Assembly: GCA_020161145.1 (NCBI GenBank)
Contig: JAIUPQ010000007.1
Span: forward strand, 1-64,000
From: Pseudomonadota bacterium
Lineage (GTDB): Bacteria; Pseudomonadota; Gammaproteobacteria; Burkholderiales; Burkholderiaceae_C
DNA: 64,000 nt
Reading direction: 5' to 3'
Shown: positions 30,886 to 57,487 of the stretch, piece after piece
How positions within the stretch are numbered: position 1 is the first letter of the stretch
How the letters are laid out: each line of letters begins with the position of its first letter
Notes under the pieces: generated by a model
The model's input: the letters and a program-made list of their open reading frames with translations, nothing else
The model's database searches: none
Told to the model about the DNA's origin: nothing
Translations under genes and position numbers: made by a program

Positions 30886-32064
30886 TCACAGCATCTCGAC
30901 CGCCAGCGCCGTGGCCTCCCCGCCGCCGATGCACAGCGACGCCACGCCCTTCTTCTTGCCCTGTTTCTTCAAGGCCCCCAGCAGCGTGACCACGATGCGG
31001 GCGCCCGAGGCGCCGATGGGGTGGCCCAGCGCCACCGCGCCGCCGTGGACGTTGACGATGTCGCGCGGCAGCTTGAAGTCGGTCATGGCGGCCATGGTGA
31101 CGGCGGCAAAGGCCTCGTTGACCTCCCACAAGTCCACGTCGCTGGCCTGCCAGCCCGCTTTTTTCAACACCTTCTCGATGGCACCGGCCGGGGCGGTGGA
31201 GAACCACTCGGGCGCCTGCGCAAACACGCTGTGGCCGACGATGCGGGCAATGGGCTTGATCCCCTGGGCCTTGGCGGTGGACTCGCGCATCAGCACCAGC
31301 GCCGCCGCACCGTCGCTGATGCTGCTGGCGTTGGCGGCCGTGATGGTGCCGCCCTTCTTGAACGCCGGCTTGAGGCTGGGCACTTTGTCGAGCTTGGCCT
31401 TGAAGGGCTGCTCGTCGTGCTTGATGACGGTGTCGCCGCCGCGGCCGGCCACGGTCACGGGCGCCATCTCCCAGTCGAAGCTGCCGTCCTCGTTGGCCTG
31501 CTTGGCGCGCTGGGTGGAGCTGATGGCGTACTCGTCCTGCTGCTCGCGCGTGAAGCCGTATTTCTCCACGCACTGCTCGGCAAACGCGCCCATGGGCTTG
31601 CCGCGCTCGTAGGCGTCTTCCAGGCCGTCCATGGCCATGTGGTCGTAGACCGTGGCCGGGCCGTATTTGACGCCTTTGCGCACGAACTCCAGGTGGGGCG
31701 CGCCGGTCATGCTCTCCATGCCGCCGGCCACCATGACGTCGGCCGAACCGGCGGCCAGCATGTCGTGGGCAAACATCATGGCGCGCATGCCGGAGCCGCA
31801 CATCTTGGTCAGCGTGACGGCGCCCGTGCTGTCGGGCAGGCCGGCCTTGCGCATGGCCTGGCGCGCCGGCGCCTGGCCCTGGCCGGCCATCAGGCAGCAG
31901 CCCATCAGCACCTCGTCGATGGCCTCGGGCTTGACGCCCGCGCGCTCGACGGCGGCCTTGATGGCCACCGCGCCCAGATCGGGGGCGGTAAGGTTGGCGA
32001 AGTCGCCCAACAGGCCGCCGATGGGCGTGCGGGCGGCAGAGACGATGACGATGGGATCGGACAT
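30886..32064 (-). CDS. Acetyl-CoA acetyltransferase (thiolase II)
   Basis: A 392-residue biosynthetic-type thiolase joining two acetyl-CoA or cleaving acetoacetyl-CoA. The nucleophile is Cys89 in TLTKMCGSGMRA. VNVHGGAVALGHPIGASGARIVVTLL carries the catalytic His, and SLCIGGGEATAL carries the second Cys. The start at ATG 32064 is preceded by GAGGAG and gives the standard MSDPIVIVSAARTPIG N-terminus. It sits between aceK and the SDR gene. With the acyl-CoA dehydrogenase nearby it suggests acetyl-CoA and fatty-acid metabolism, alongside the glyoxylate-shunt switch AceK. Confidence 0.95.
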   Translation of the reverse strand: MSDPIVIVSAARTPIGGLLGDFANLTAPDLGAVAIKAAVERAGVKPEAIDEVLMGCCLMAGQGQAPARQAMRKAGLPDSTGAVTLTKMCGSGMRAMMFAHDMLAAGSADVMVAGGMESMTGAPHLEFVRKGVKYGPATVYDHMAMDGLEDAYERGKPMGAFAEQCVEKYGFTREQQDEYAISSTQRAKQANEDGSFDWEMAPVTVAGRGGDTVIKHDEQPFKAKLDKVPSLKPAFKKGGTITAANASSISDGAAALVLMRESTAKAQGIKPIARIVGHSVFAQAPEWFSTAPAGAIEKVLKKAGWQASDVDLWEVNEAFAAVTMAAMTDFKLPRDIVNVHGGAVALGHPIGASGARIVVTLLGALKKQGKKKGVASLCIGGGEATALAVEML

Positions 32065-32136
32065 GGGGCGGCTCCTCTGGGCAATGCGGGTGGTGCCGCC
32101 GATGATAGGCCGCTGCGCCGCAGGCGCCGCCATGGC

Positions 32137-33933
32137 TCAGCCGCGCTGGCGCGCGAAGCGCTTGGCCTCGTCGTAGGGGAAGACGTCGTGCACGTGGCCG
32201 GCGGCGATGCGGTCTTTGTGCGCCTGCCAGAAGGCCGCGTCCAGCAGGTCGGCGTGGTGCTGCATGAAGACCTCGCGCACCGCCGGGTTGCCCAGCAGGA
32301 AGGGGCCGAAGGTTTCGGGGAAGACGTCGTGGCGGCCCACGCTGTACCAGACCTCGCCGCTCATCTCCTCTTCCTCGTTGCGCGGCTGCGGCACGCGGCG
32401 GAACTGGGTGTCGGTGATGTACTCGATCTCGTCGTAGTCGTAGAACACCACCTTGCCGTGGCGGGTCACGCCGAAGTTCTTCCACAACATATCGCCGGGG
32501 AAGATGTTGGCTGCCACCAGGTCCTTGATGGCATGGCCGTATTCGATGACGGCCGCGCGCAGTTGCTCGGGGCTGGCGTCCTGCAAAAAGATGTTCAGCG
32601 GCACCATGCGCCGCTCGATGTAGACGTGGCTGAGGATCAGCTCCATCTGGCCGTCGTCGTCGCGGTCGGAAATCTCCAGCACGCTGGCGCAGTGTTTTTG
32701 CAGCTCCGCAATCAGCTCGGGCTCGAAGCGCGCCAGCGGAAACGCCACCTTGGAAAACTCCAGCGTGTCGGCCATGCGGCCCACCCGGTCGTGCTGCTTG
32801 ACCAGCAGGTACTTGCCCATGATCTGCTCGCGCGTGGTCTCTTTTTGCGCCGGGTACTCGTCCTTGATGACTTTGAAGACGAAGGGAAAGCTGGGCAAGT
32901 CGAACACCATCATCACCATGCCCTTGATGCCGGGCGCGATGCGAAAGTGGTCGCTGGAATGCTGCAGATGGGCCAGGAAGTCGCGGTAGAACAGGTTCTT
33001 GCCGTGTTTTTGCAGCCCCAGTGCGTTGTACAGCTCGGCGCGCGGCTTGCGCGGCATCACCGCGCGCAGAAACTGCACGTAGGCGCTGGGCACCTCCATC
33101 TCGACCATGAAGTAGGCGCGCGCAAAGCTGAACACCAGCAGCAGGTCTTCCTCGTCGAACAGCGCAGCGTCCACCACCAGCCCGCCCGCCCCATGCAGGA
33201 TGGGCAGCAGCATGGGCTGGTCGCGGTAGCCGTTGATGACGCGCGCCACCACATAGGCCGCCTTGTTGCGGAAAAACGGACTGGCCAGCACCTGGATCTG
33301 GAAGTTGGGCCGCGCGCGAAAGCGCCCGCTGTCCATCTCCAGCTCCTGGCGCAGCGCGGCGTGCACGGCGTCCACGTCGCGCGCCAGGTCTTCCCAGGGC
33401 CGGGCCAGCCCGAAGTCGGCCAGCACCGCCTCGCAAGTGGCCCGCAGCGTTTCGGCCCGGGGGTAGTAGACCCGGTAGGCCGGCGTGCCGCCGGGGGCAT
33501 CGTCGTCCAGGTACTCGGTGCTGATGGCCGGCCGCACGAAGATGAAGTCGTTGTGGAAATAGCTGCGGTGCAGGATCTTGGTGGTGACCGAGTTGAAGAA
33601 GGTCTCGGCCAGCTCGGGCTGGTGGTGGTTGACCAGCAGCCCGATGTAATGCAGCTTGACCTGCTGCCACACGTCCATCGACAGCTCGCCGGCGCCGAAC
33701 TCGTGCTGCAACCGCTCGGCGGCCTCGGCCACGCGGCGGTCGTAATAGGCGATGCGCTCGGCCTGGGCCTGCTGCTGGCCATGCCAGTCGGCCGCCTCGA
33801 AGCGCTGCTTGGCGCCGCGGCTGACCTCACGGAACAGCCGGTAGTGTTTGTTGAAGCCTTCGAGCATCGCGCGCGCGATGTCGAAACCGCGGCTGTCGGT
33901 CAGGGTCTGCGGAAACAGCGCCGCCGTGGTCAA
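32137..33933 (-). CDS. aceK: Isocitrate dehydrogenase kinase/phosphatase
   Basis: A predicted 598-residue AceK, which phosphorylates and dephosphorylates isocitrate dehydrogenase to divert carbon into the glyoxylate shunt. Landmarks include [59 protein letters not shown] (kinase Lys), [30 protein letters not shown] and [14 protein letters not shown]. No ATG lies at the conserved start. TTG at 33933 overlaps the can stop codon (TTGA) and fits the family N-terminus. GTG at 33957 would give 606 residues, and ATG at 33867 would cut into the conserved first helix. Confidence 0.93.
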
Positions 33934-34595
33934 CCACCGGCCCCGTATCGGCGGCACACTCCGCCCAGCGCCGTGGCGTAGCCGGGCGCCACCTCGTCGG
34001 GGCTGCTGGCCGTGATGGCCAGGTCGGCCAGCAGGCCGTTGTGCAGGCCATAGACCCATCCATGCACCGTCACGCTCTGGCCGCGCGCCCAGGCGTCGCG
34101 CACCACCGTGGTCTCGCAGACGTTGCGCGCCTGCTCCAGCACGTTGAGCTCGCACAGCGCGTTGACGCGCTGGTCGGCATCGATCTGGTCCAGCAGCTCG
34201 CGGTGCAAGGCCACCACGTCCTTGACGTGCCGGATCCAGTTGTCCACCAGGCCCAGCCGCAAGTCGTCCAGCGCCGCGCGCACGCCACCGCAGTTGGAAT
34301 GGCCCACCACGATGATGTGCTGCACCTGCAGCGCGTCCACCGCAAACTGGATGACGGACAGCGCATTCAGGTCCGAGTGCGCCACCACGTTGGCCACGTT
34401 GCGGTGCACGAACAGCTCGCCCGGCAGCAGCCCCACCAGATCGTTGGCCGGCACCCGGCTGTCGGCACAGCCTATCCACAGGTATTGCGGCTTCTGCTGG
34501 GCCAGCAAGGCACTGAAAAAACCAGGCGTGCGTTGCTCGGTGGCTTGGGCCCAGTCGCGGTTGCGGGCCAGCAGTTCAGACAGAGTGGTGGTCAC
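33930..34595 (-). CDS. can: Beta-class carbonic anhydrase
   Basis: A 221-residue zinc enzyme interconverting CO2 and bicarbonate. Zinc ligands and active-site residues are visible: CADSR (Cys43, with the Asp45-Arg47 dyad) and HSNCGG (His99, Cys102). [14 protein letters not shown] and [16 protein letters not shown] are typical of the E. coli Can type. The stop overlaps the aceK start. The can-aceK pairing links bicarbonate supply to central metabolism, and I recall it from Burkholderiales genomes. It faces the propeller-protein gene across 165 bases. Confidence 0.96.
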
Positions 34596-34760
34596 GCCCG
34601 GCAGTCTAGCTGGAATCGCCCCGGGGAGGCTGCCTCGGCGCCGTGCCGCGGGTTAGGCTGGATGCGTGCGGCACCAGCCAGGCGTAGCCTCCAGAACTCG
34701 CCACCACGTCGCGTCTTGTGCTGTTTGCAGATCGTGATGCCCACCCACTGGAGCACGCTC

Positions 34761-36149
34761 ATGACTTGTCAGCCCCCTTCTCTGACCCTGGCCGCCTTGA
34801 TGGTGTTCAGTCCGCTGGCCGCCGCCAACCCGCCTGGCCCCGCTTGCATGGTCTGGTCCGCCCCTGAGGTCATCCGGTCGCTGGCCGATGGGCGGGTGGC
34901 TGCAAACCGTGTCGCGGTGGGCATGGACGGTACCGGCCGCGCCATCTTGCTCTACGGCGAAACCAGTGCCGACAACCCCACAGAGGAGACGGTCTATGCG
35001 CGCCACCGTGCTGCACAAGGCGTTTGGGGCGATCCGGTGCCGGTGTGGCAGACCGTGGTCGGCTCCGATGCTCGCCCCTCCTACCTGGCGCTGTCCGTGG
35101 GCGCCAACGGCCACGCATTGGCATCCGGGCGCCGGGCTGACAACACCCTACGTCCCACGCGCATGGCCGCCTACGACCCGGACACTGGCTGGCAGGCCCC
35201 GGTCGAGCTGCTGGACATGGCCGGCGACTTTTCCCCACCTACGGTCGCCGTGGGCCCCGATGGCCGAGGCCTGGCGGCGTGGGTGGCCACCACCCGCCAC
35301 CGCATTCGCGCCCGCGCCTGGGCCCCCGCGACAGGCTGGGGGCCCGACGAACAGGTGACGCCGGGCCGGTCTTCTCTGCGCTCACCCAAGTTGGCCGTCA
35401 ATGCCCGCGGTCAGGCGCTGCTGACCTACGGACAGGGCAGCAGGGGCGATGATGTCTACGCCCGGTTCCGCAATGCCCATGGCGCCTGGGGTCGGGCGAC
35501 CCAACTGAATGTGCGCAACGGCGGACTGTTGGAAGAGATCATGGGGCCGCAACCAGCGCTCAATGCAGCCGGTGACGCCTGGGTGACGTGGTCGGATCGT
35601 CGCGGCCGCATACGCACGGTCATGGTCAGTTCATTCGACCGCCATACGCGTCGGTGGCTGGAGACGCCCGTGCCGCTGAGCGCACTTGACGTGGATGCGG
35701 AGGACCCCGTGCTGCGGCTCAACGAACAGGGGCAGATGCTGGTGGGTTGGCATCAGTCGTACTTTCTGTACCTCCATGACAACAAGGAGCGCATCCAGAC
35801 GCGGCTTTACACCCCCTCGCAGGGCTGGGGGCCGGTCAATGACCTGAACCGGCGCGGCCGCTCCAGCGGCACCCCGGGCCTGGCGCTGGATGAGGCCGGC
35901 AACGCCACCACCGTGTGGCCGCAGATCACGCCCAACCGCGGCTGGCATCTGCACACGCTGGCGCAGCCGATGGGCGCGCCCGCCGTGAGCGGCCGACTGC
36001 ATGCCAACGGCAGCGTGGCCACCGAGCCCTGGCAGATGGCCGATGGTGAGGGTCGGCACGCCATCGTGGTGTTCATCCGGCAGGAAAGCCCCGGTGGCAG
36101 CAGGGAACTGGTCAGTCAGGTTGGCCAGCTCGGCGACTGCCCGCCCTGA
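34761..36149 (+). CDS. Secreted propeller-like repeat protein, copy 1
   Basis: A 462-residue exported protein of unknown function. The ATG at 34761 follows TGGAG, in a block identical to that of copy 2; an upstream in-frame ATG at 34737 would add eight residues. A signal peptide (to about LAAANPPGP) is followed by about eight units of 45-50 residues. Their pattern is x-W-x-x-P-x-x-L ... P-x-L-A-V-x-x-x-G-x-A-L-x-x-W (for example GWGPDEQVTPG...PKLAVNARGQALLTYG). This suits a seven- or eight-bladed beta-propeller. One Cys lies near the mature N-terminus (GPACMVW) and one at the very end (LGDCPP), as if to close the ring. It is followed by a tandem paralogue. Confidence 0.82.
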   Translation: MTCQPPSLTLAALMVFSPLAAANPPGPACMVWSAPEVIRSLADGRVAANRVAVGMDGTGRAILLYGETSADNPTEETVYARHRAAQGVWGDPVPVWQTVVGSDARPSYLALSVGANGHALASGRRADNTLRPTRMAAYDPDTGWQAPVELLDMAGDFSPPTVAVGPDGRGLAAWVATTRHRIRARAWAPATGWGPDEQVTPGRSSLRSPKLAVNARGQALLTYGQGSRGDDVYARFRNAHGAWGRATQLNVRNGGLLEEIMGPQPALNAAGDAWVTWSDRRGRIRTVMVSSFDRHTRRWLETPVPLSALDVDAEDPVLRLNEQGQMLVGWHQSYFLYLHDNKERIQTRLYTPSQGWGPVNDLNRRGRSSGTPGLALDEAGNATTVWPQITPNRGWHLHTLAQPMGAPAVSGRLHANGSVATEPWQMADGEGRHAIVVFIRQESPGGSRELVSQVGQLGDCPP

Positions 36150-36190
36150 GCGCGGGGCCTGGGGCCACGCCCCGGGGGTGGCGACGATGG

Positions 36191-36210
36191 GGCGCACGCC
36201 TGATCGCACC
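36191..36210 (+). pseudogene. Vestige of the ibaG start after propeller copy 1
   Basis: The stretch reads GCGCAC-GCCTGATCGCACC, matching GCGCACATGCCTGATCCCACC at the true ibaG start (from 37877) except for loss of AT in the start codon and one substitution. About 40 bases before it also align. Beyond it the two loci diverge, so only the beginning of ibaG was copied or kept. The remaining bases up to 36426 show no gene that I can support. Confidence 0.75.
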
Positions 36211-36426
36211 AGCTGCGGGTTTGGCCCGATGTGGGCCGCAGGGGCCGGGGCTACCCTCAAAGCGCAGTCACCTCCGCTTTCCCAGGGAGGCCCCATGCCC
36301 AAGGCTGCGTGATGTGGGCAGGGGTCAACAAAACGCGGACGGCAACCCCCGGTTGATCGCCCGATTCGGCGCCAGGCCGACTGGCGCTGCCTGCGGGCCA
36401 TGGCGCCCGCCGACTGGAGCACGCTC

Positions 36427-37839
36427 ATGACTTTTCATCCCCACTCGCTGGCCCTGGCCGCTGCCTTGGTGGCAGCCAGCCCGATGGCCGCTGCGGCCTC
36501 GTCTGGCCCCGCTTGCATGATCTGGTCGGCCCCTGAGGCCATTCGGTCGCTGGCCGATAAGCGGGTAGATCCGTTCTATGTGGAGGTGGGCATAGACGGC
36601 GCCGGCCGTGCCATCTTGCTCTACAGCGAAGCCCGTGCCGGCACCAAAAAGGAGCAGACGGTCTACGCCCGCCACCGTTCAGCAGAAGGCGTTTGGGGCG
36701 ATCCGGTGCCGCTCTCGCACATCGTGGGCGATCAAGGGAGCTTCGTCTGGGCCACCCACCTGAAGCTGTCCGTGGGCGCCAGCGGCCACGCATTGGCATC
36801 CTGGCGGCCCGAAGTGTCTCTGGATTATGCGTGGCAGAGTCCGGGCATGGCCGCCTACGCCCCGGACACCGGCTGGCAAACCCCGGTCGAGCCGCTGGAT
36901 CCCGACAACTCCTCGACTCCGCCCTCGCTCGCCGTAGGCCCCGACGGTCGAGGCCTGGCGGTATGGCCAGCCACCCCATTCGCCGACAACCAACTGCGCG
37001 CCCGCGCCTGGGATCCCGCCACAGGCTGGGGGCCCGACGAACTGGTGGAGACATCCCTGGCCCGAGCGCGCGGGCCCAAGCTGGCCGTCAATGCCCACGG
37101 TCAGGCGCTGCTGACGTACGAACTGAACTACAGCGATGTCTACGCCCGGTTTCGCAGCGCCGATGGGGCCTGGAGCCCACCGCGCCGCCTGACTCGGCGC
37201 AACGGCCACAACTGGGACACCCAGATGAATCCGCAACCGGCGTTCAATGCTTCGGGCGACGCCTGGGTCGCGTGGTCGGACCGCCAAAGCCGCGTGTACA
37301 GGGTGACGGTCAGCTCATTCGACCGCAACACGCGCAAGTGGCTGGAGGAACCAGTGCAACTGAGCGAACCCGACGAGGACGCGATCGATCCCGTGCTGCG
37401 ACTCAACGAGCAGGGACAGATGCTGCTGGGTTGGTATCAGATCTGGGGCCTGGGGAAAGAGCGCGCCCAGTCGCGGCTCTACACCCCCACGCAGGGCTGG
37501 GCGCCGGTCACCGACCTGAGCCGGCGCGGTCGCTCCTTCGGTGCCCCGGGCGTGGCGTTGGATGAGGCCGGCAACGCCACCACCGTGTGGCGGCAGATCA
37601 CACCCGGCGAGAACTGGCACCTTCACGTGCTGGCGCAGCCGATGGGCGCGCCCGCAGTGGACGGACGGCTACATGACCATCAACGCACGAGCGGGTTGGG
37701 GGCGAGGTGGTTTTGGAAGATGGCCGACAGTGAGGGCCGGCACGCCATCCTGGCGTTCACGCGGCCGGTGCGCGGGAGTAGCGGCGAGGGGCGGGAGCTG
37801 GTCAGCCAGGTCGGCCGCCTCGGCGACTGCCCGCCCTGA
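36427..37839 (+). CDS. Secreted propeller-like repeat protein, copy 2
   Basis: A 470-residue paralogue of the preceding protein, similar along its whole length, with the same signal-peptide type, GPACMIWSAPE near the mature N-terminus and REL VSQVGRLGDCPP-type ending. The repeat units are again W-x-x-P...LAV-x-x-x-G-x-A-L-x-x-W (for example GWGPDELVETS...PKLAVNAHGQALLTYE). Differences cluster in the loops: copy 2 has insertions such as SLDYAWQSPG and HDHQRTSGLGARWF. The ATG sits in the same ribosome-binding block as copy 1. I do not recognise a named family; a ligand-binding exported propeller is the inference. It ends 42 bases before ibaG. Confidence 0.82.
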   Translation: MTFHPHSLALAAALVAASPMAAAASSGPACMIWSAPEAIRSLADKRVDPFYVEVGIDGAGRAILLYSEARAGTKKEQTVYARHRSAEGVWGDPVPLSHIVGDQGSFVWATHLKLSVGASGHALASWRPEVSLDYAWQSPGMAAYAPDTGWQTPVEPLDPDNSSTPPSLAVGPDGRGLAVWPATPFADNQLRARAWDPATGWGPDELVETSLARARGPKLAVNAHGQALLTYELNYSDVYARFRSADGAWSPPRRLTRRNGHNWDTQMNPQPAFNASGDAWVAWSDRQSRVYRVTVSSFDRNTRKWLEEPVQLSEPDEDAIDPVLRLNEQGQMLLGWYQIWGLGKERAQSRLYTPTQGWAPVTDLSRRGRSFGAPGVALDEAGNATTVWRQITPGENWHLHVLAQPMGAPAVDGRLHDHQRTSGLGARWFWKMADSEGRHAILAFTRPVRGSSGEGRELVSQVGRLGDCPP

Positions 37840-37881
37840 GCGCGCACGGCACGGGCCACGGGGGTGGCGATAATTGCGCAC

Positions 37882-38124
37882 ATGCCTGATCCCACCGCCC
37901 CCGACGTCGAGCGCTACATCGCGGCCGGCCTTGCCTGCACCCATCTGGAGGTGGAAGGTGATGGCCGGCACTTCTTTGCCACCATCGTCAGCGATGCCTT
38001 CGAGGGCTTGCCGCGCATCCGCCGGCACCAACTGGTCTACGCCGCGCTGGGCGAGCGCATGCGCGAAGAGGTGCATGCGCTGTCGATGAAGACGCTGACG
38101 CCGGCCGAGTGGAAGGTGGCCTGA
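37882..38124 (+). CDS. ibaG: BolA-family protein IbaG
   Basis: An 80-residue BolA/YrbA-like protein. It shows [52 protein letters not shown] and ends [13 protein letters not shown]. The strand [11 protein letters not shown] and the conserved R-x-x-RHQLVY are diagnostic. IbaG partners with monothiol glutaredoxin in Fe-S handling and acid stress. The ATG at 37882 gives the family length; an in-frame GTG at 37864 would add six residues. The stop is one base before murA, as in most proteobacteria. The upstream propeller gene's flank contains a copied remnant of this start. Confidence 0.93.
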
Positions 38125-38125
38125 G

Positions 38126-39409
38126 ATGGATCACCTGCTGATCCGGGGCGGCCGCCCGCTCCACGGCACGGTGCGCGTCTCGGGCGCCAAGAACGCCGCG
38201 CTGCCCGAGCTGTGCGCCGCGCTGCTGACGGCCGAGCCGGTGCACCTGGCCAACGTGCCGCATCTGCAAGACGTGCGCACCACGCTCAAGCTGCTGCGCC
38301 ACCTGGGCGCCGAGGCCGAATGGGAGAACGAGGGCGTGCGCATCGACGCCGGGCCCGTGGCCAGCACCGAGGCGCCTTATGAGCTGGTCAAGACCATGCG
38401 CGCCTCCATCCTGGTGCTGGGGCCGCTGCTGGCGCGCTTTGGCACGGCCACCGTCTCGCTGCCCGGCGGCTGCGCCATCGGCTCGCGGCCGGTGGACCAG
38501 CACATCAAGGGCATGCAGGCCATGGGTGCCCACATCACGGTCGAGCACGGCAACATCCGCGCCGAGGCCCCGCTGAACGCCCACGGCCAGCGCCGGCTGC
38601 ACGGCGCGCGCATCACCACCGACATGGTCACCGTCACCGGCACCGAAAACCTGTTGATGGCCGCCGCGCTGGCCGAGGGCGTGACGGTGCTGGAAAACGC
38701 CGCCCGCGAGCCCGAGGTGACCGATCTGGCCGAACTGCTGATTGCCATGGGCGCGCAGATCGAGGGCCATGGCAGCCACCGCATCACGGTGCACGGCGTC
38801 GAGCGGCTGCACGCGCCCGCCACGCCGCACCGCGTGGTGGCCGACCGCATCGAGGCCGGCACGTTCCTGTGCGCCGTGGCGGCGGCGGGCGGCGACGTGA
38901 TGGTGGCCGGCGCCCGCGCCGAGCATTTGGATGCGCTGCTGGACAAGCTGCGCGAGGCCGGCGCCACCCTGGGCGTGCAGTCGGCCGGCATCCGCATCCA
39001 GGCCAGCGGCCGGCCGCGCGCGGTGAGCTTTCGCACCAGCGAGTTCCCGGCGTTTCCCACCGACATGCAGGCCCAGCTGATGGCCGTCAACTGCATCGCC
39101 GAGGGCACGGCCACGGTCAGCGAGACCATTTTTGAAAACCGCTTCATGCACGTCAACGAGCTGCTGCGGCTGGGCGCCCACATCGAGACCGACGGCCACA
39201 CGGCGGTGGTCACCGGCGTGCCCCAGCTGTCGGGCGCCACGGTGATGGCCACCGACTTGCGCGCCTCGGCCAGCCTGGTGATTGCGGGCCTGGTGGCCGA
39301 GGGCGCCACGCGCGTCGATCGCATCTACCACCTGGACCGGGGCTACGACGGCATGGAGGTCAAGCTGCGCGCGCTGGGCGCCGACATCGAGCGGGTGGCG
39401 GGCGGATGA
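38126..39409 (+). CDS. murA: UDP-N-acetylglucosamine 1-carboxyvinyltransferase
   Basis: A 427-residue enzyme that transfers enolpyruvate from PEP to UDP-GlcNAc, the first committed step of peptidoglycan synthesis and the fosfomycin target. It has GAKNAALP (Lys22-Asn23), the loop [18 protein letters not shown] with catalytic Cys116 (the Cys that fosfomycin alkylates), [18 protein letters not shown] and [13 protein letters not shown]. The stop overlaps the hisG start (ATGA), and ibaG is one base upstream, so ibaG-murA-hisG-hisD form a coupled operon. Confidence 0.98.
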
Positions 39410-40041: not shown

Positions 40042-41351
40042 AGCTGCTCACCACCACCGCCGCCACCTTCGACGCCGAGCTGGCGCGGCTGCACCACTGG
40101 TCGGCCCAGACCGATGCCGCCATCGAAGCGGCCGTGACCGACATCATTGCCGCCGTGCGCGCCGAGGGCGACGCCGCCGTGCTGGCCTGCACCGCCCGCT
40201 TCGACGCGCTGCCTGCGCCCAGCATGGCGGCCTTGACGCTGGGCCCCGAGGCGCTGCGCCACGCCTTCGAGACCGCCATCACGCCGGCCCAGCGCCAGGC
40301 GCTGCAGGCCGCCGCCGCCCGCGTGCGCCACTACCACCAGCAGCAACTGGAGGCCTGCGGCCGCAGCTGGGCCTATGTGGACGAGCAGGGCAACCGCCTG
40401 GGGCAGAAGGTCACGCCGCTGGACCGCGTGGGCATTTACGTGCCCGGCGGCAAGGCGGCCTACCCGTCCAGCGTGCTGATGAACGCCATTCCGGCCCAGG
40501 TGGCCGGCGTGGGCGACATCGTGATGGCCGTGCCCACGCCGCGCGGCGAGCGCAACGCGCTGGTGCTGGCCGCCGCCCACGTGGCCGGTGTGCAGCGGGT
40601 CTTCACCATCGGCGGCGCCCAGGCCGTGGCGGCGCTGGCTTACGGCACGGAAAGCGTGCCCGCCGTGGACAAGATCACCGGCCCCGGCAACGCCTATGTG
40701 GCCGCTGCCAAGCGCCGCGTCTTCGGCCAGGTGGGCATCGACATGATTGCCGGCCCCAGCGAAATCCTGGTGCTGGCCGACGGCAGCACCCCGCCCGACT
40801 GGGTGGCCATGGACTTGTTCAGCCAGGCCGAGCACGACGAGCTGGCGCAGAGCATCCTGCTGACGCCCGATGCGGCCTACCTCGCTGCCGTGCAGGAGGC
40901 CATCGCGCGCCTGCTGCCCAGCCAGCCGCGCGCCGCCATCATCCGCCAGAGCCTGGACGGGCGCGGCGCGCTGATCCACACCCGCAGCATGGACGAGGCC
41001 TGCGCCATCGCCAACCGGCTGGCGCCCGAGCATCTGGAGATCGCCAGCGCCGAGCCCGCACGCTGGGAGCCGCTGCTGCGCCACGCCGGCGCCATCTTCA
41101 TGGGCGCCTACACCAGCGAGAGCCTGGGCGACTACTGCGCCGGCCCCAACCACGTGCTGCCCACCAGCGGCACGGCGCGCTTCTCGTCGCCGCTGGGGGT
41201 GTACGACTTCCAAAAGCGCAGCAGCCTGATCGAGGTCAGCCGCGCGGGTGCGCAGACGCTGGGTCGCATCGCCGCCGAGCTGGCCCTGGGCGAAGGGCTG
41301 GCGGCCCACGCCCAGGCCGCTCAGTTGCGGCTGGACGGCACGGCCGACTGA
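40038..41351 (+). CDS. hisD: Histidinol dehydrogenase
   Basis: A 437-residue zinc enzyme that oxidises histidinol to histidine in two NAD-dependent steps. [76 protein letters not shown] and [28 protein letters not shown] are the family signatures. HisD is followed not by hisC but by a convergent patatin gene that overlaps its last 31 bases. Histidine genes resume at 44982. Confidence 0.98.
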
Positions 41352-42562
41352 CGCGGCGGCGGCTTGCGTATCGGCCAGCCAAAGAACGCCCGCACCTCGG
41401 TGCGACGGGCGCGCACGTCGGCCTCACCCAGCGCCATCAGCTCGCGCGTGTACGGCGACTCGAACAGCAGGTAGCTGGCCAGCGCGGCGCCGCCGCCGCT
41501 GGCCGCGTTGACGCCCACGCCGCGCAGCATGGCGCGCACCGGTCGTGGCAGGCTGCCCAGATGGCGCGCGGCGATGTCGTCCAGCCGCGCCGACGGCGCA
41601 ATGACCAGCGACTGCACCGGCCGCAGCCCGGCCGCCGCCCGGGCGGCCAGCGGCAGCAGCGCCAGCGTGCGGTTGATGCGCTCCATGCGCTCGATGTCCA
41701 CCGCCAGCGCGTCCAGAAAGATGCTGGACATGGCGTGGCCACCGATCTGCGCCAGCGTGGGGTACTCCTCGCCGGTGCCGGCCCGCGGCGGCACGATTTC
41801 GTGCATCCGGCCCGCGCCGATGATCAACAGCCGCTGGGCGCCCAGGTGGATGGCCGGCGACAGCGGCGCGCTCTGGCGCATGGAGCCGTCGCCATACCAC
41901 TCGTCGCCAATGCGCCGGGCCGGGAACATGAAGGGAATGGCCGCCGAGGCCAGCAGGTGGTCGAGGGTGAACCCCGCCGTGGCAATCGCCTGGCGCTGCG
42001 AGCGCAGCCAGGGTGCATGGTCGTCGGCGCTGCAATAGAAGGTCACGTGGTCGCCGCGCGTGTAGCTCGATGCCGTCAGCGCCAGCGCCCGCAGATGCCC
42101 TTGCGTCAGCATCTGCGGCACCCGCTCCAGCGGAATCAGCCGGCCCAGCAGCTCGGCCAGCGGCGCGTTGTCCAGCAGCGAGCGCGGCCGCGCACGGCGC
42201 CAGCGCGCCAGCGCCCAGCCCAGCGTGAACAGCGTCAGCCAGCGGGCGCCCGTGCGCGCCACGCCCAGCGCGTCGGCCAGATAGATCTGGTGGGCCTGCA
42301 TGTGGCTCCAGACCTGCACCAGCCGGGCCACCACGCCATCGAAATCGTCGGCATGGCTGGCCAGCGCGGCCGCGTTGATGGCCCCGGCCGAGGTGCCCAC
42401 CAGGATGTCGAATGGGCTGGCCTTGGAGTCAGGCACCGACTGGCGGCGCAGCCGCGCAATCGCCCGCAGCACCCCCACCTGATACGCGGCCCGCGCGCCG
42501 CCGCCACTGAGCACCAGCGCGGTGGCATCGGTGGCCGGGACAGGGGCGGGCGTGGCCGTCAT
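41321..42562 (-). CDS. Patatin-like phospholipase
   Basis: A 413-residue predicted lipid acyl hydrolase. The oxyanion motif is [15 protein letters not shown], the nucleophile elbow GTSAG, and the catalytic Asp lies in [14 protein letters not shown] (DG-x). After GTSAG comes a region with [14 protein letters not shown], possibly membrane-associated. The closest type I recall is the RssA-like or surface phospholipase of Burkholderiales. The ATG at 42562 begins MTATPAPV. The 3' end overlaps hisD by 31 bases on the opposite strand. With the DUF2157-type gene it forms an insert inside the his cluster. Confidence 0.88.
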
Positions 42563-42637
42563 GATCTGCCCATCATGCACGCACCTGGGTGGGCGCCAAT
42601 CGGTCAAACACCCACCGCAACTGCGGTCAATACCACA

Positions 42638-44947
42638 ATGACCCTCATGCACACACTGGCATCCAATCCCTGGCCCACCCGCATCGCCCTGGGCGGCGCC
42701 GCGCTGGGCGGCCTCGGTCTCATCATGTGGGTGGCCTCGCAATGGGCCGGCTGGGGCCTGCCCCTGCGCTTCGGGCTGGCCCAGGCGGTGCTGGCCCTGG
42801 GGCTGCTGGGTGCGGCCGTCACCACCGGGCGCCAGGCCTTTGCACTGCTGGGCTGGCTGGCCATCGGCGCGCTGTTTGCACTCATTGGCCAGACCTACCA
42901 GACCGGCGCCGACCCCTGGCAGCTCTTTGCGCTGTGGACGCTGCTGGCCCTGCCGGTGGCGCTGGCCGCGCGCAGCGACGCGCTGTGGAGCGGCTGGGCG
43001 CTGGTGGCCGCCGTGGCGGTGGCGCGGTGGCTGAGCACCCGCAGCGGCCTCATCTTCAGCGACGCCCCGCCACCCCTGAGCGCGCTGGTGGCGGCACTGC
43101 TGCTGGCCGCCATCTGGCTTGCCGTGGGTCCACTGGCCAGGCGCTGGACGGGCGCCGGCCGCTGGGCGCCCCGCGTGGCGTCGGTGGCCATGCTGCTGGT
43201 GCTGGCCGGCATGGGCGTCATGGCCCTGGTAGACGCCCGAAGCATGACCCTGCCACTGACCTGGCTGGTGGCATTGCTGGCCGTGGCCGTATTGGCCGCC
43301 GCCCTGACGCGGGCACCTTGGCAGGACGCCGGCCAACTGGCGGCCACCGCGCTGGCTGCGCTGGTGCTGCTGGTGGCTTGGGCCGCGGTGCGACTGCTGA
43401 AGTGGGGTGCCAGCGACCCCATCAGCGCGCTGTTGCTGCTGGGGGTGCTGGCCGCAGTGCTGCTGGCACTGCTGGCCTGGGCGCTGCTGCGCTGGCAGGC
43501 ACGCCGCGCCGATGCGACCACCGCCATCTGGCCAGTGGCCGCCCTCACCGCCCTGGGCGCCTGGCTGGCCGCCGTGCCGCTGCTGGCCGGGCTGGGCCTG
43601 GCGCTGGGCGCGGCATTCAGGTCCAGCTTCTGGCTGGTGGGCGCCGTGCTGTGGGTGGGGGCGGTGGCGGTGCTGCGGCGTCCGGGGCTGACGCGCTTTG
43701 TCGAGCAGGTGATGGTGCCCGTGCTGCTGGCCGGCGGCGTGGCGCTGGCGGTGGGTGCCAGCACCGACGGGCCGGCCGAGCGTGGCGCAGCGGTGGGCCT
43801 GGCCGCCACCCTGGTGGCGGCCGCACTGCTGCCGCAGCCCTGGCTGCGCGGCGTGCTGGGCGCGCTGGCGCTGGTGGCCGCCCAGATCATGCTGGGTGGG
43901 CGGTTGGTGGACGGGGCCGGGTGGGCCGAGACGACACTGCTGCTGGCCTGGTTGCTGGCCACGCCGCTGCATCGCCACCCCCGCTGGCAGCCGGTGGCCC
44001 TGGGCTGGATCGTGGCCTGGCTGGGGCTGGTCATGTGGAGCGGTGGCCCCACGCTGCTGGTGGCCGGCGTGGCTGGCGAGATGGGCGATGGCTGGTCCAT
44101 GTGGACGGTGGTTGGTGTCGCGCACAAGTTGTCGGCTGCGCTGGCGGTGGTCGCCGCCGTGCTGCTGTGGCGAATGTTGCCGGCGCTGCGCGGCCTGCGC
44201 GCCGCCGTGGTCGCCGCCGTGCTGGTGGCCCTGGCCGCCGCCGTGCCGGCGCTGGGCGGCGTGCTGCTGGTGCTGGTGTTGGGCTGGCTGCACGGCACCC
44301 GCAGCCTGGTGGCGCTGGCCACGCTGGCCGCGCTGTGGCTGGTGGGCACGCTGTACTACGAGCTGCACTGGCCGCTAGCCCACAAAGGGCTGGCGCTGGC
44401 GGTGGCGGGCACGCTGCTGGTGGCCAGCGTGTGGCGGCCGCGCGCGCAGTGGCAGGCGCCGCGCGGCGTGCGGCCCATGGCCTTGCTGCTGGGCGCGCTG
44501 GCGGCCACGCTGGCGTTGGCCAACACCACCATCTGGCGCCAGCAGCAGATCGTGGCCCAGGGGCGCACGGTGTATGTGGCGCTGGCGCCGGCAGACCCGC
44601 GCTCGTTGCTGGCCGGCGACTACATGCGGCTGGCGTTCGAGCTGCCCGAGGCGGTGTTCAGCACCCCGGGCGCGACCCGCGTGCGCGCCCGAGTGGACGC
44701 CCAAGGCGTAGCCACCGTCACCGCCGTGCTGGCACCCGGGGCGGTCGTGGGCGCAGGTGAAGTGGCGCTGCCGCTGCGTAGACGGCTGAGTCGGGGCCGC
44801 GGCCCCGTTCTGGTGACAGACGCCTACTATTTCCCCGAGGGCCAGGCCGCGCGCTTTGCATCGGCGCGCTACGGCGTGCTGCGCGTGCTGCCCGATGGCC
44901 GCGCGCTGCTGACGGGGCTGGCCGATGCGCAGCGCCGGCCACTGTGA
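42638..44947 (+). CDS. DUF2157/GDYXXLXY-domain multispanning membrane protein
   Basis: A 769-residue inner-membrane protein with about 20 hydrophobic segments rich in Leu and Ala. The N-terminal part (LASNPWPTRIALGGAALGGLGLIMWVASQW to about residue 130) resembles DUF2157, and the middle DUF4401. The C-terminal extracytoplasmic domain carries SLLAGDYMRLAFELP, a GDYXXLXY motif whose last Tyr is Phe. It continues with DAYYFPEGQAARFASARYGVLRVLPDGRALL. The function of this family is unknown. The ATG at 42638 is used; 42647 is also possible. It is divergent from the patatin gene across 75 bases and 34 bases upstream of hisC, so hisC may depend on its promoter. Confidence 0.85.
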   Translation: MTLMHTLASNPWPTRIALGGAALGGLGLIMWVASQWAGWGLPLRFGLAQAVLALGLLGAAVTTGRQAFALLGWLAIGALFALIGQTYQTGADPWQLFALWTLLALPVALAARSDALWSGWALVAAVAVARWLSTRSGLIFSDAPPPLSALVAALLLAAIWLAVGPLARRWTGAGRWAPRVASVAMLLVLAGMGVMALVDARSMTLPLTWLVALLAVAVLAAALTRAPWQDAGQLAATALAALVLLVAWAAVRLLKWGASDPISALLLLGVLAAVLLALLAWALLRWQARRADATTAIWPVAALTALGAWLAAVPLLAGLGLALGAAFRSSFWLVGAVLWVGAVAVLRRPGLTRFVEQVMVPVLLAGGVALAVGASTDGPAERGAAVGLAATLVAAALLPQPWLRGVLGALALVAAQIMLGGRLVDGAGWAETTLLLAWLLATPLHRHPRWQPVALGWIVAWLGLVMWSGGPTLLVAGVAGEMGDGWSMWTVVGVAHKLSAALAVVAAVLLWRMLPALRGLRAAVVAAVLVALAAAVPALGGVLLVLVLGWLHGTRSLVALATLAALWLVGTLYYELHWPLAHKGLALAVAGTLLVASVWRPRAQWQAPRGVRPMALLLGALAATLALANTTIWRQQQIVAQGRTVYVALAPADPRSLLAGDYMRLAFELPEAVFSTPGATRVRARVDAQGVATVTAVLAPGAVVGAGEVALPLRRRLSRGRGPVLVTDAYYFPEGQAARFASARYGVLRVLPDGRALLTGLADAQRRPL

Positions 44948-56716: not shown

Positions 56717-57487
56717 TCAGTGGCGCAGCTTGTAGCCCGTGCGCAGCAGGTGCAGCGCCACCGCCGCCACCACCGCGAACGCCGCACCAACCACCGCCAG
56801 CGACAACCAGGGCGAGACGTCACCGACGCCGAAGAAGCCGTGGCGGAAGCCGTCGATCATGTAGAAAAAAGGGTTGGCGTGGCTGATGGTGTACCAGACG
56901 CCGGGCAGCGAGTACACCGAGTAGAAGACACCGGCCAGAAACGTCATGGGCATGACGATGAAGTTCTGGAACGCGGCCATCTGGTCGAACTTGTCGGCCC
57001 ACAGCCCGGCGATCAGCCCCAGCGCGCCCATCAGCGCCGCGCCCAGCACGGCAAAACCCAATGCCCACAGCGGCTGGGCCAGCGTCAGCGGCACGAACCA
57101 GACCGTGGCCAGCAGCACGCCCGCGCCCACGGCTAATCCGCGCACCATGGCCGCGCCCACATAGGCCACGAACCATGCCCACGGTGACAACGGCGTGACC
57201 AGCACGAAGACCAGGTTGCCCGTGATCTTGCTCTGAATGAGGCTGGACGAGGTGTTGGCAAACGCGTTTTGCAGCACGCTCATCATCACCAGGCCCGGCA
57301 CCAGAAACGCGGTGTAAGGCACCTGGCCATAGACCCGCGCCTCGTCGCCCAGCACGTGGCCGAAGATCAACAGGTAGAGCATGGCGGTGAGCACCGGCGC
57401 GCCCACGGTCTGGAAGGCCACCTTCCAAAAACGCAGCACCTCTTTATAGAAGAGGGTGCGCACGCCCAGCGACTCGTGGTGACTCAT
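56717..57487 (-). CDS. ABC-2 type transporter permease
   Basis: A 256-residue membrane protein with six predicted segments and the ABC-2 signature region (NPFFYMIDGFRHGFFGVGD near the C-terminus, KITGNLVFVLVTPLSPWAW in the middle). The start overlaps the ATP-binding gene's stop (ATGA). This NodJ/YadH-like type exports drugs, lipids or glycans. Together with the upstream ATPase it makes a complete exporter; there is no separate periplasmic component. The substrate is not evident. Confidence 0.92.
   Translation of the reverse strand: MSHHESLGVRTLFYKEVLRFWKVAFQTVGAPVLTAMLYLLIFGHVLGDEARVYGQVPYTAFLVPGLVMMSVLQNAFANTSSSLIQSKITGNLVFVLVTPLSPWAWFVAYVGAAMVRGLAVGAGVLLATVWFVPLTLAQPLWALGFAVLGAALMGALGLIAGLWADKFDQMAAFQNFIVMPMTFLAGVFYSVYSLPGVWYTISHANPFFYMIDGFRHGFFGVGDVSPWLSLAVVGAAFAVVAAVALHLLRTGYKLRH

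Follow-up and report, generated by a model that had tools for sequence, protein, structure and literature searches.

A probable head-to-tail duplication of a predicted propeller gene that carried along the start of ibaG

Organization of the Locus

The window, as we call the whole 64,000-nucleotide stretch of DNA analysed here, contains two adjacent genes in the same orientation, referred to below as propeller copies 1 and 2, whose products share 65% amino-acid identity and which are the sole matches to one another at E ≤ 10 in the window's own 3.5-Mb genome (Table 1). The N-termini of both proteins carry a stretch that, judged by eye, resembles a signal peptide. Copy 2 is followed by ibaG, whose product scores 69 bits against the Pfam BolA family (cut-off 25.7), and then by genes read by eye as murA, hisG, and hisD. 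Third-position GC is 0.81 in both propeller copies versus 0.85–0.945 in ibaG, murA, hisG, hisD, and the carbonic-anhydrase-like gene on the left, a difference that would fit acquisition of the propeller genes from elsewhere.

Further to the right, the stretch between hisD and hisC (41321–44947) holds a patatin-like gene on the minus strand and a membrane-protein gene on the plus strand, all four named by eye. The his genes flanking this stretch are adjacent in one relative (G005, locus L082), and a gap is also present at loci L079 and L080.

Table 1. Coordinates of genes and sequence features at the propeller–ibaG locus and of the permease elsewhere in the window.
Feature	Position	Strand	Basis
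Carbonic-anhydrase-like gene (named by eye), left neighbour of the putative duplicated unit	33930–34595	-	Relatives compared
Putative left end of duplicated unit, upstream of copy 1	34645–34691	+	33/47 vs 36212–36258
Propeller gene copy 1	34761–36149	+	Open frame, 462 aa
Remnant of the ibaG start (upstream box plus five codons), closing unit copy 1	36169–36210	+	34/42 vs 37855–37896
Putative duplication junction, where unit copy 1 ends and unit copy 2 begins	36210–36212	.	ibaG match stops at 36210; best left-flank anchor 36212
Putative left end of duplicated unit, upstream of copy 2	36212–36258	+	33/47 vs 34645–34691; anchored tests
Stretch upstream of copy 2 with ~99 bases lacking a counterpart upstream of copy 1	36259–36377	+	Upstream alignment and lengths
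Propeller gene copy 2	36427–37839	+	Open frame, 470 aa; predicted all-beta model
Source of the remnant: ibaG from its GATAAT box and ATG through codon 5	37855–37896	+	34/42 vs 36169–36210
ibaG (BolA-like protein, 80 aa)	37882–38124	+	Pfam BolA, E 4.3e-19
ABC-type permease	56720–57487	-	76% identity, E 2.5e-126 to the relatives' ibaG-adjoining permease

Predicted Fold of the Propeller Proteins

The AlphaFold2 model of copy 2, built from a two-row alignment, is all-beta, with a mean pLDDT of 70.3 and a pTM of 0.78. Its nearest solved structures in Foldseek are the propeller lectins PDB 8q82 and 6gxs (E 6.8e-11 and 7.2e-11; TM 0.49–0.50 by query), and further matches include propeller-fold sialidases and lyases. 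From the model and these structures, we can assign a propeller fold to copy 2 with moderate confidence. At the sequence level, copy 2 matches Pfam BNR_2 (PF13088) below threshold (E 0.014; 15.2 bits, cut-off 31.4). Going by the fold resemblance, the propeller proteins likely act outside the cytoplasm, binding or processing a glycan from a surface or the environment.

Ends of the Duplicated Unit and the Joint between Copies

A first-pass annotation of this DNA described two adjacent paralogues followed by a common flank, and our analysis bears this out. The 42 bases that close unit copy 1 and those spanning the start of ibaG are equal in length and identical at 34 positions without gaps; the match continues the propeller-gene alignment in register and lies at the same distance past the stop codon in both copies. 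In the ungapped alignment, the GATAAT of ibaG reads GACGAT in the remnant, and its ATG reads ACG. The start is altered, as the annotation had noted, but the loss of two bases from the ATG that it proposed would need two balancing gaps, and a change of ATG to ACG accounts for the alignment without any.

The sequence that follows the remnant had been described as unrelated; we find instead that it resembles the DNA upstream of copy 1 and probably represents the left end of the second unit. An unanchored low-stringency alignment of both upstream regions, which started just beyond the remnant end, was not significant and was equalled by 103 of 1000 Markov controls. A head-to-tail duplication predicts that the DNA beginning where the remnant stops will match some point upstream of copy 1; in an anchored test of this prediction, we took the best ungapped prefix score from five starts (36209–36213) against the DNA upstream of copy 1. 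This test, partly post hoc in that it was devised once the first alignment had been seen, gave a score of 19 for 36212–36258 against 34645–34691, which was reached by none of 1407 genomic controls (mean 6.5, maximum 17) and by no Markov-generated left flank among 1000 (maximum 12). Among the 228 starts from 36150 to 36377, the best anchor was 36212, two bases beyond the end of the ibaG match. Continuing ibaG sequence scored 4–5.

The right end of the unit, therefore, appears to adjoin its left end at a new joint, 36210/36212, in the head-to-tail arrangement of a tandem duplication. The two parental ends have at most three bases (GCC) in common, no more than expected by chance. Judging from the joint, the unit would extend from about 34645 to codon 5 of ibaG (~1.6 kb), with 36210/36212 as the only new joint; its left boundary would thus lie ~116 bases upstream of the copy 1 ATG and not, as first annotated, at the ribosome-binding block. 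The distance from the unit start to the ATG is 116 bases in copy 1 versus 215 in copy 2. As a source of the ~99 extra bases, a search of 36205–36425 against the whole genome returned the query itself and short matches, the best other one at E 0.03.

The first-pass annotation also assigned a direction to the event, with copy 2 as the original and copy 1 plus the remnant inserted upstream as a separate piece. The adjacency of intact ibaG to copy 2 speaks for such an insertion, which we nonetheless consider improbable: the direct joint, with the remnant running to 36210 and the unit starting at 36212, has the head-to-tail pattern with no insert, and an inserted piece would in addition have had to hit the homologous left end precisely, a further coincidence. 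A head-to-tail duplication with a single new joint singles out neither copy. The original flanks are shared out between the two, the left one staying with the left copy and the right one with the right copy, so neither can be called the insert.

Identity of the Flank

A GATAAT box lies 7–10 bases before the ibaG ATG in all 14 same-genus ibaG loci; 13 loci were counted by script, and the fourteenth (L041), which the script's peptide filter had passed over, was added by eye. A further genus member (G015) has no ibaG match. The box is a putative -10 element. The motif occurs twice in the 64-kb window, both strands together. The remnant is far closer to the ibaG start of its own genome, at 34/42, than to the leaders of 13 relatives, where the best identities are 17–21/42.

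The equal spacing of the flank past both stop codons is also what one would see if it served the propeller genes themselves, for example as a terminator or regulator, and had a superficial likeness to ibaG. We regard this as highly improbable, since the flank after copy 2 is the ibaG start with its GATAAT box, a box present in 14/14 same-genus ibaG loci, all of which lack the propeller gene, and since the box is gone from the remnant. Moreover, a consensus scan of 34590–37900 gave four terminator-like sites, all of them outside the flank, and no promoter-like sites, and Rfam returned nothing for 33900–38200.

The local score of 44 between the remnant and the ibaG start is reached by none of 2811 random window stretches (maximum 36) and by none of 3000 Markov pairs. 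A chance match between GC-rich sequences, the refutation that the first-pass annotation had itself put forward, is therefore extremely improbable, for although one Markov control came as close as 43, the match beats every control of either kind and falls in register with the gene alignment. We conclude that 36169–36210 is a decayed copy of the ibaG start in which both box and ATG have changed, and that the duplicated unit did run into ibaG, as originally proposed.

ibaG Neighbourhood in the Genus

An ABC-type permease lies directly upstream of ibaG in 13 of 14 same-genus loci. At the remaining one (G012, locus L035), an unrelated gene lies between, and the permease is found ~2.1 kb further upstream; this intervening gene (L035/L087), by eye a secreted hydrolase, sits in the gap that is occupied here by the propeller genes. 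The closest permease in the window's own genome (76%, E 2.5e-126) is encoded on the minus strand at 56723–57487, away from ibaG. The order permease-ibaG-murA-hisG-hisD is seen in 5/5 ibaG regions compared, and the acetyltransferase-like neighbour (30889–32136) of the carbonic-anhydrase-like gene in 3/4 regions compared. In the four relatives that have both genes on one contig (G001, G005, G006, and G007), the carbonic-anhydrase-like gene lies 84–227 kb from ibaG, versus ~3.3 kb here. Because both blocks lie far apart in relatives, the propeller pair stands at the joint of two rearranged blocks.

The copy 2–ibaG joint is, on this comparison, not ancestral to the genus. The first-pass annotation had called it the native junction, which holds relative to the duplication but not for the genus, where the permease and not a propeller gene precedes ibaG. 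Since the unit contains the ibaG start, a propeller gene must already have stood next to ibaG before the duplication.

It is conceivable, though rather doubtful, that incoming or rearranged DNA repeatedly lands or is joined in the gap just before the ibaG box, which holds the propeller genes here and the hydrolase-like gene in G012. If so, a compact box by the start codon would let ibaG outlast any new left neighbour, and the site would tolerate breakage.

Relatives of the Propeller Protein

None of the 15 other same-genus genomes contains a propeller homologue, and the check proposed with the first-pass annotation, a search for relatives in which a lone propeller gene precedes ibaG, accordingly came back empty among them. 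With at most four candidates scored per genome, a family set of 399 genomes gave weak partial matches in 15 genomes besides the window's own (best 32% over 228 residues), and an order set of 399 genomes, which overlaps the family set, gave weak matches in four genomes besides the own one with a two-row profile. Two pattern-based scans of genome contigs, which reach close relatives only, matched 17 and 31 stretches, none of them confirmed. Viral contigs yielded two pattern-matching stretches, neither confirmed, phages yielded no match, and plasmids yielded three records at 24–26% identity to the propeller protein. The sets searched contained no single-copy relative with a propeller gene at ibaG, and the order of events is accordingly read from one genome. 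No title among those returned by literature searches concerns the present locus.

Age, Selection, and Divergence of the Copies

The aligned codons of the two copies are 75% identical at the DNA level, and fourfold sites are 77% identical (193 sites). The right and left flank identities (81% and 70%) bracket the fourfold-site value, as expected from one event. The two methods for dN/dS disagree, with ratios from 0.35 to 0.63: NG86 gives a dN of 0.27, a dS of 0.42, and a ratio of 0.63 (bootstrap 0.50–0.85, 300 resamples), and YN00 gives a dS of 0.69 and a ratio of 0.35. When half of the 343 differences were placed at random, only 1.45% of 2000 simulated copies were free of stops. Because stop-free copies are so rare in this simulation, and given the dN/dS ratios, both propeller genes have probably been kept. 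The longest run of identity between the copies is 33, against a permutation mean of 26.3 (p 0.12), so that gene conversion is not supported.

Proposed Sequence of Events

We consider it very probable that the locus arose by head-to-tail tandem duplication of a ~1.6-kb unit, comprising the propeller gene and the start of ibaG, followed by decay of the remnant and retention of both genes. We infer a single-copy ancestral state and propose the following steps:

(i) The permease–ibaG neighbourhood would have been broken in this lineage, and one propeller gene, together with the DNA preceding it, placed directly upstream of the ibaG box.

(ii) A tandem duplication in head-to-tail orientation, its ends sharing little or no homology, then copied the DNA from ~34645 to ibaG codon 5, as the joint shows.

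(iii) The truncated ibaG start that closes the first unit decayed, as its altered GATAAT box and ATG show.

(iv) Both propeller genes would have kept intact frames while diverging to 65% amino-acid identity, with selection either purifying or relaxed, as suggested by dN/dS and the open frames.

(v) ibaG retains its own box and start beside copy 2.

One observation stands against a duplication in a single step, namely the ~99-base difference between the upstream regions, which such an event does not explain.

A readable joint seldom survives in old tandem duplications. Here, both unit ends are legible, and it is for this reason that an order can be stated, with the placement of the propeller gene beside ibaG first and the duplication second. 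The locus also illustrates how the start region of a neighbouring gene may become a remnant without function, one easily taken for a regulatory element. The duplication is clear-cut but of an ordinary bacterial type, and it changes no general view.

Comparison with Known Systems

The predicted propeller protein is most like the PLL-type beta-propeller lectins of Photorhabdus and CV39L of Chromobacterium, which are the nearest solved structures to the copy 2 model, but it differs from them in sharing just 12–15% sequence identity, and its fold is known from a model of moderate quality. With respect to Pfam BNR_2, the likeness is limited to the weak copy 2 match below the curated cut-off, copy 1 being without a match.

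For the duplication itself, a parallel exists in the amplification of the cat gene in Acinetobacter baylyi, where tandem duplications with little or no end homology are ascribed to illegitimate recombination (PMC9997567). In both systems, the arrangement is head-to-tail with one new joint, and the ends share 0–5 bp there (PMC9997567) and at most three bases here. The A. baylyi units are 12–290 kb and recent (PMC9997567), whereas the unit at ibaG is ~1.6 kb and old, with a 25% DNA difference in aligned codons.
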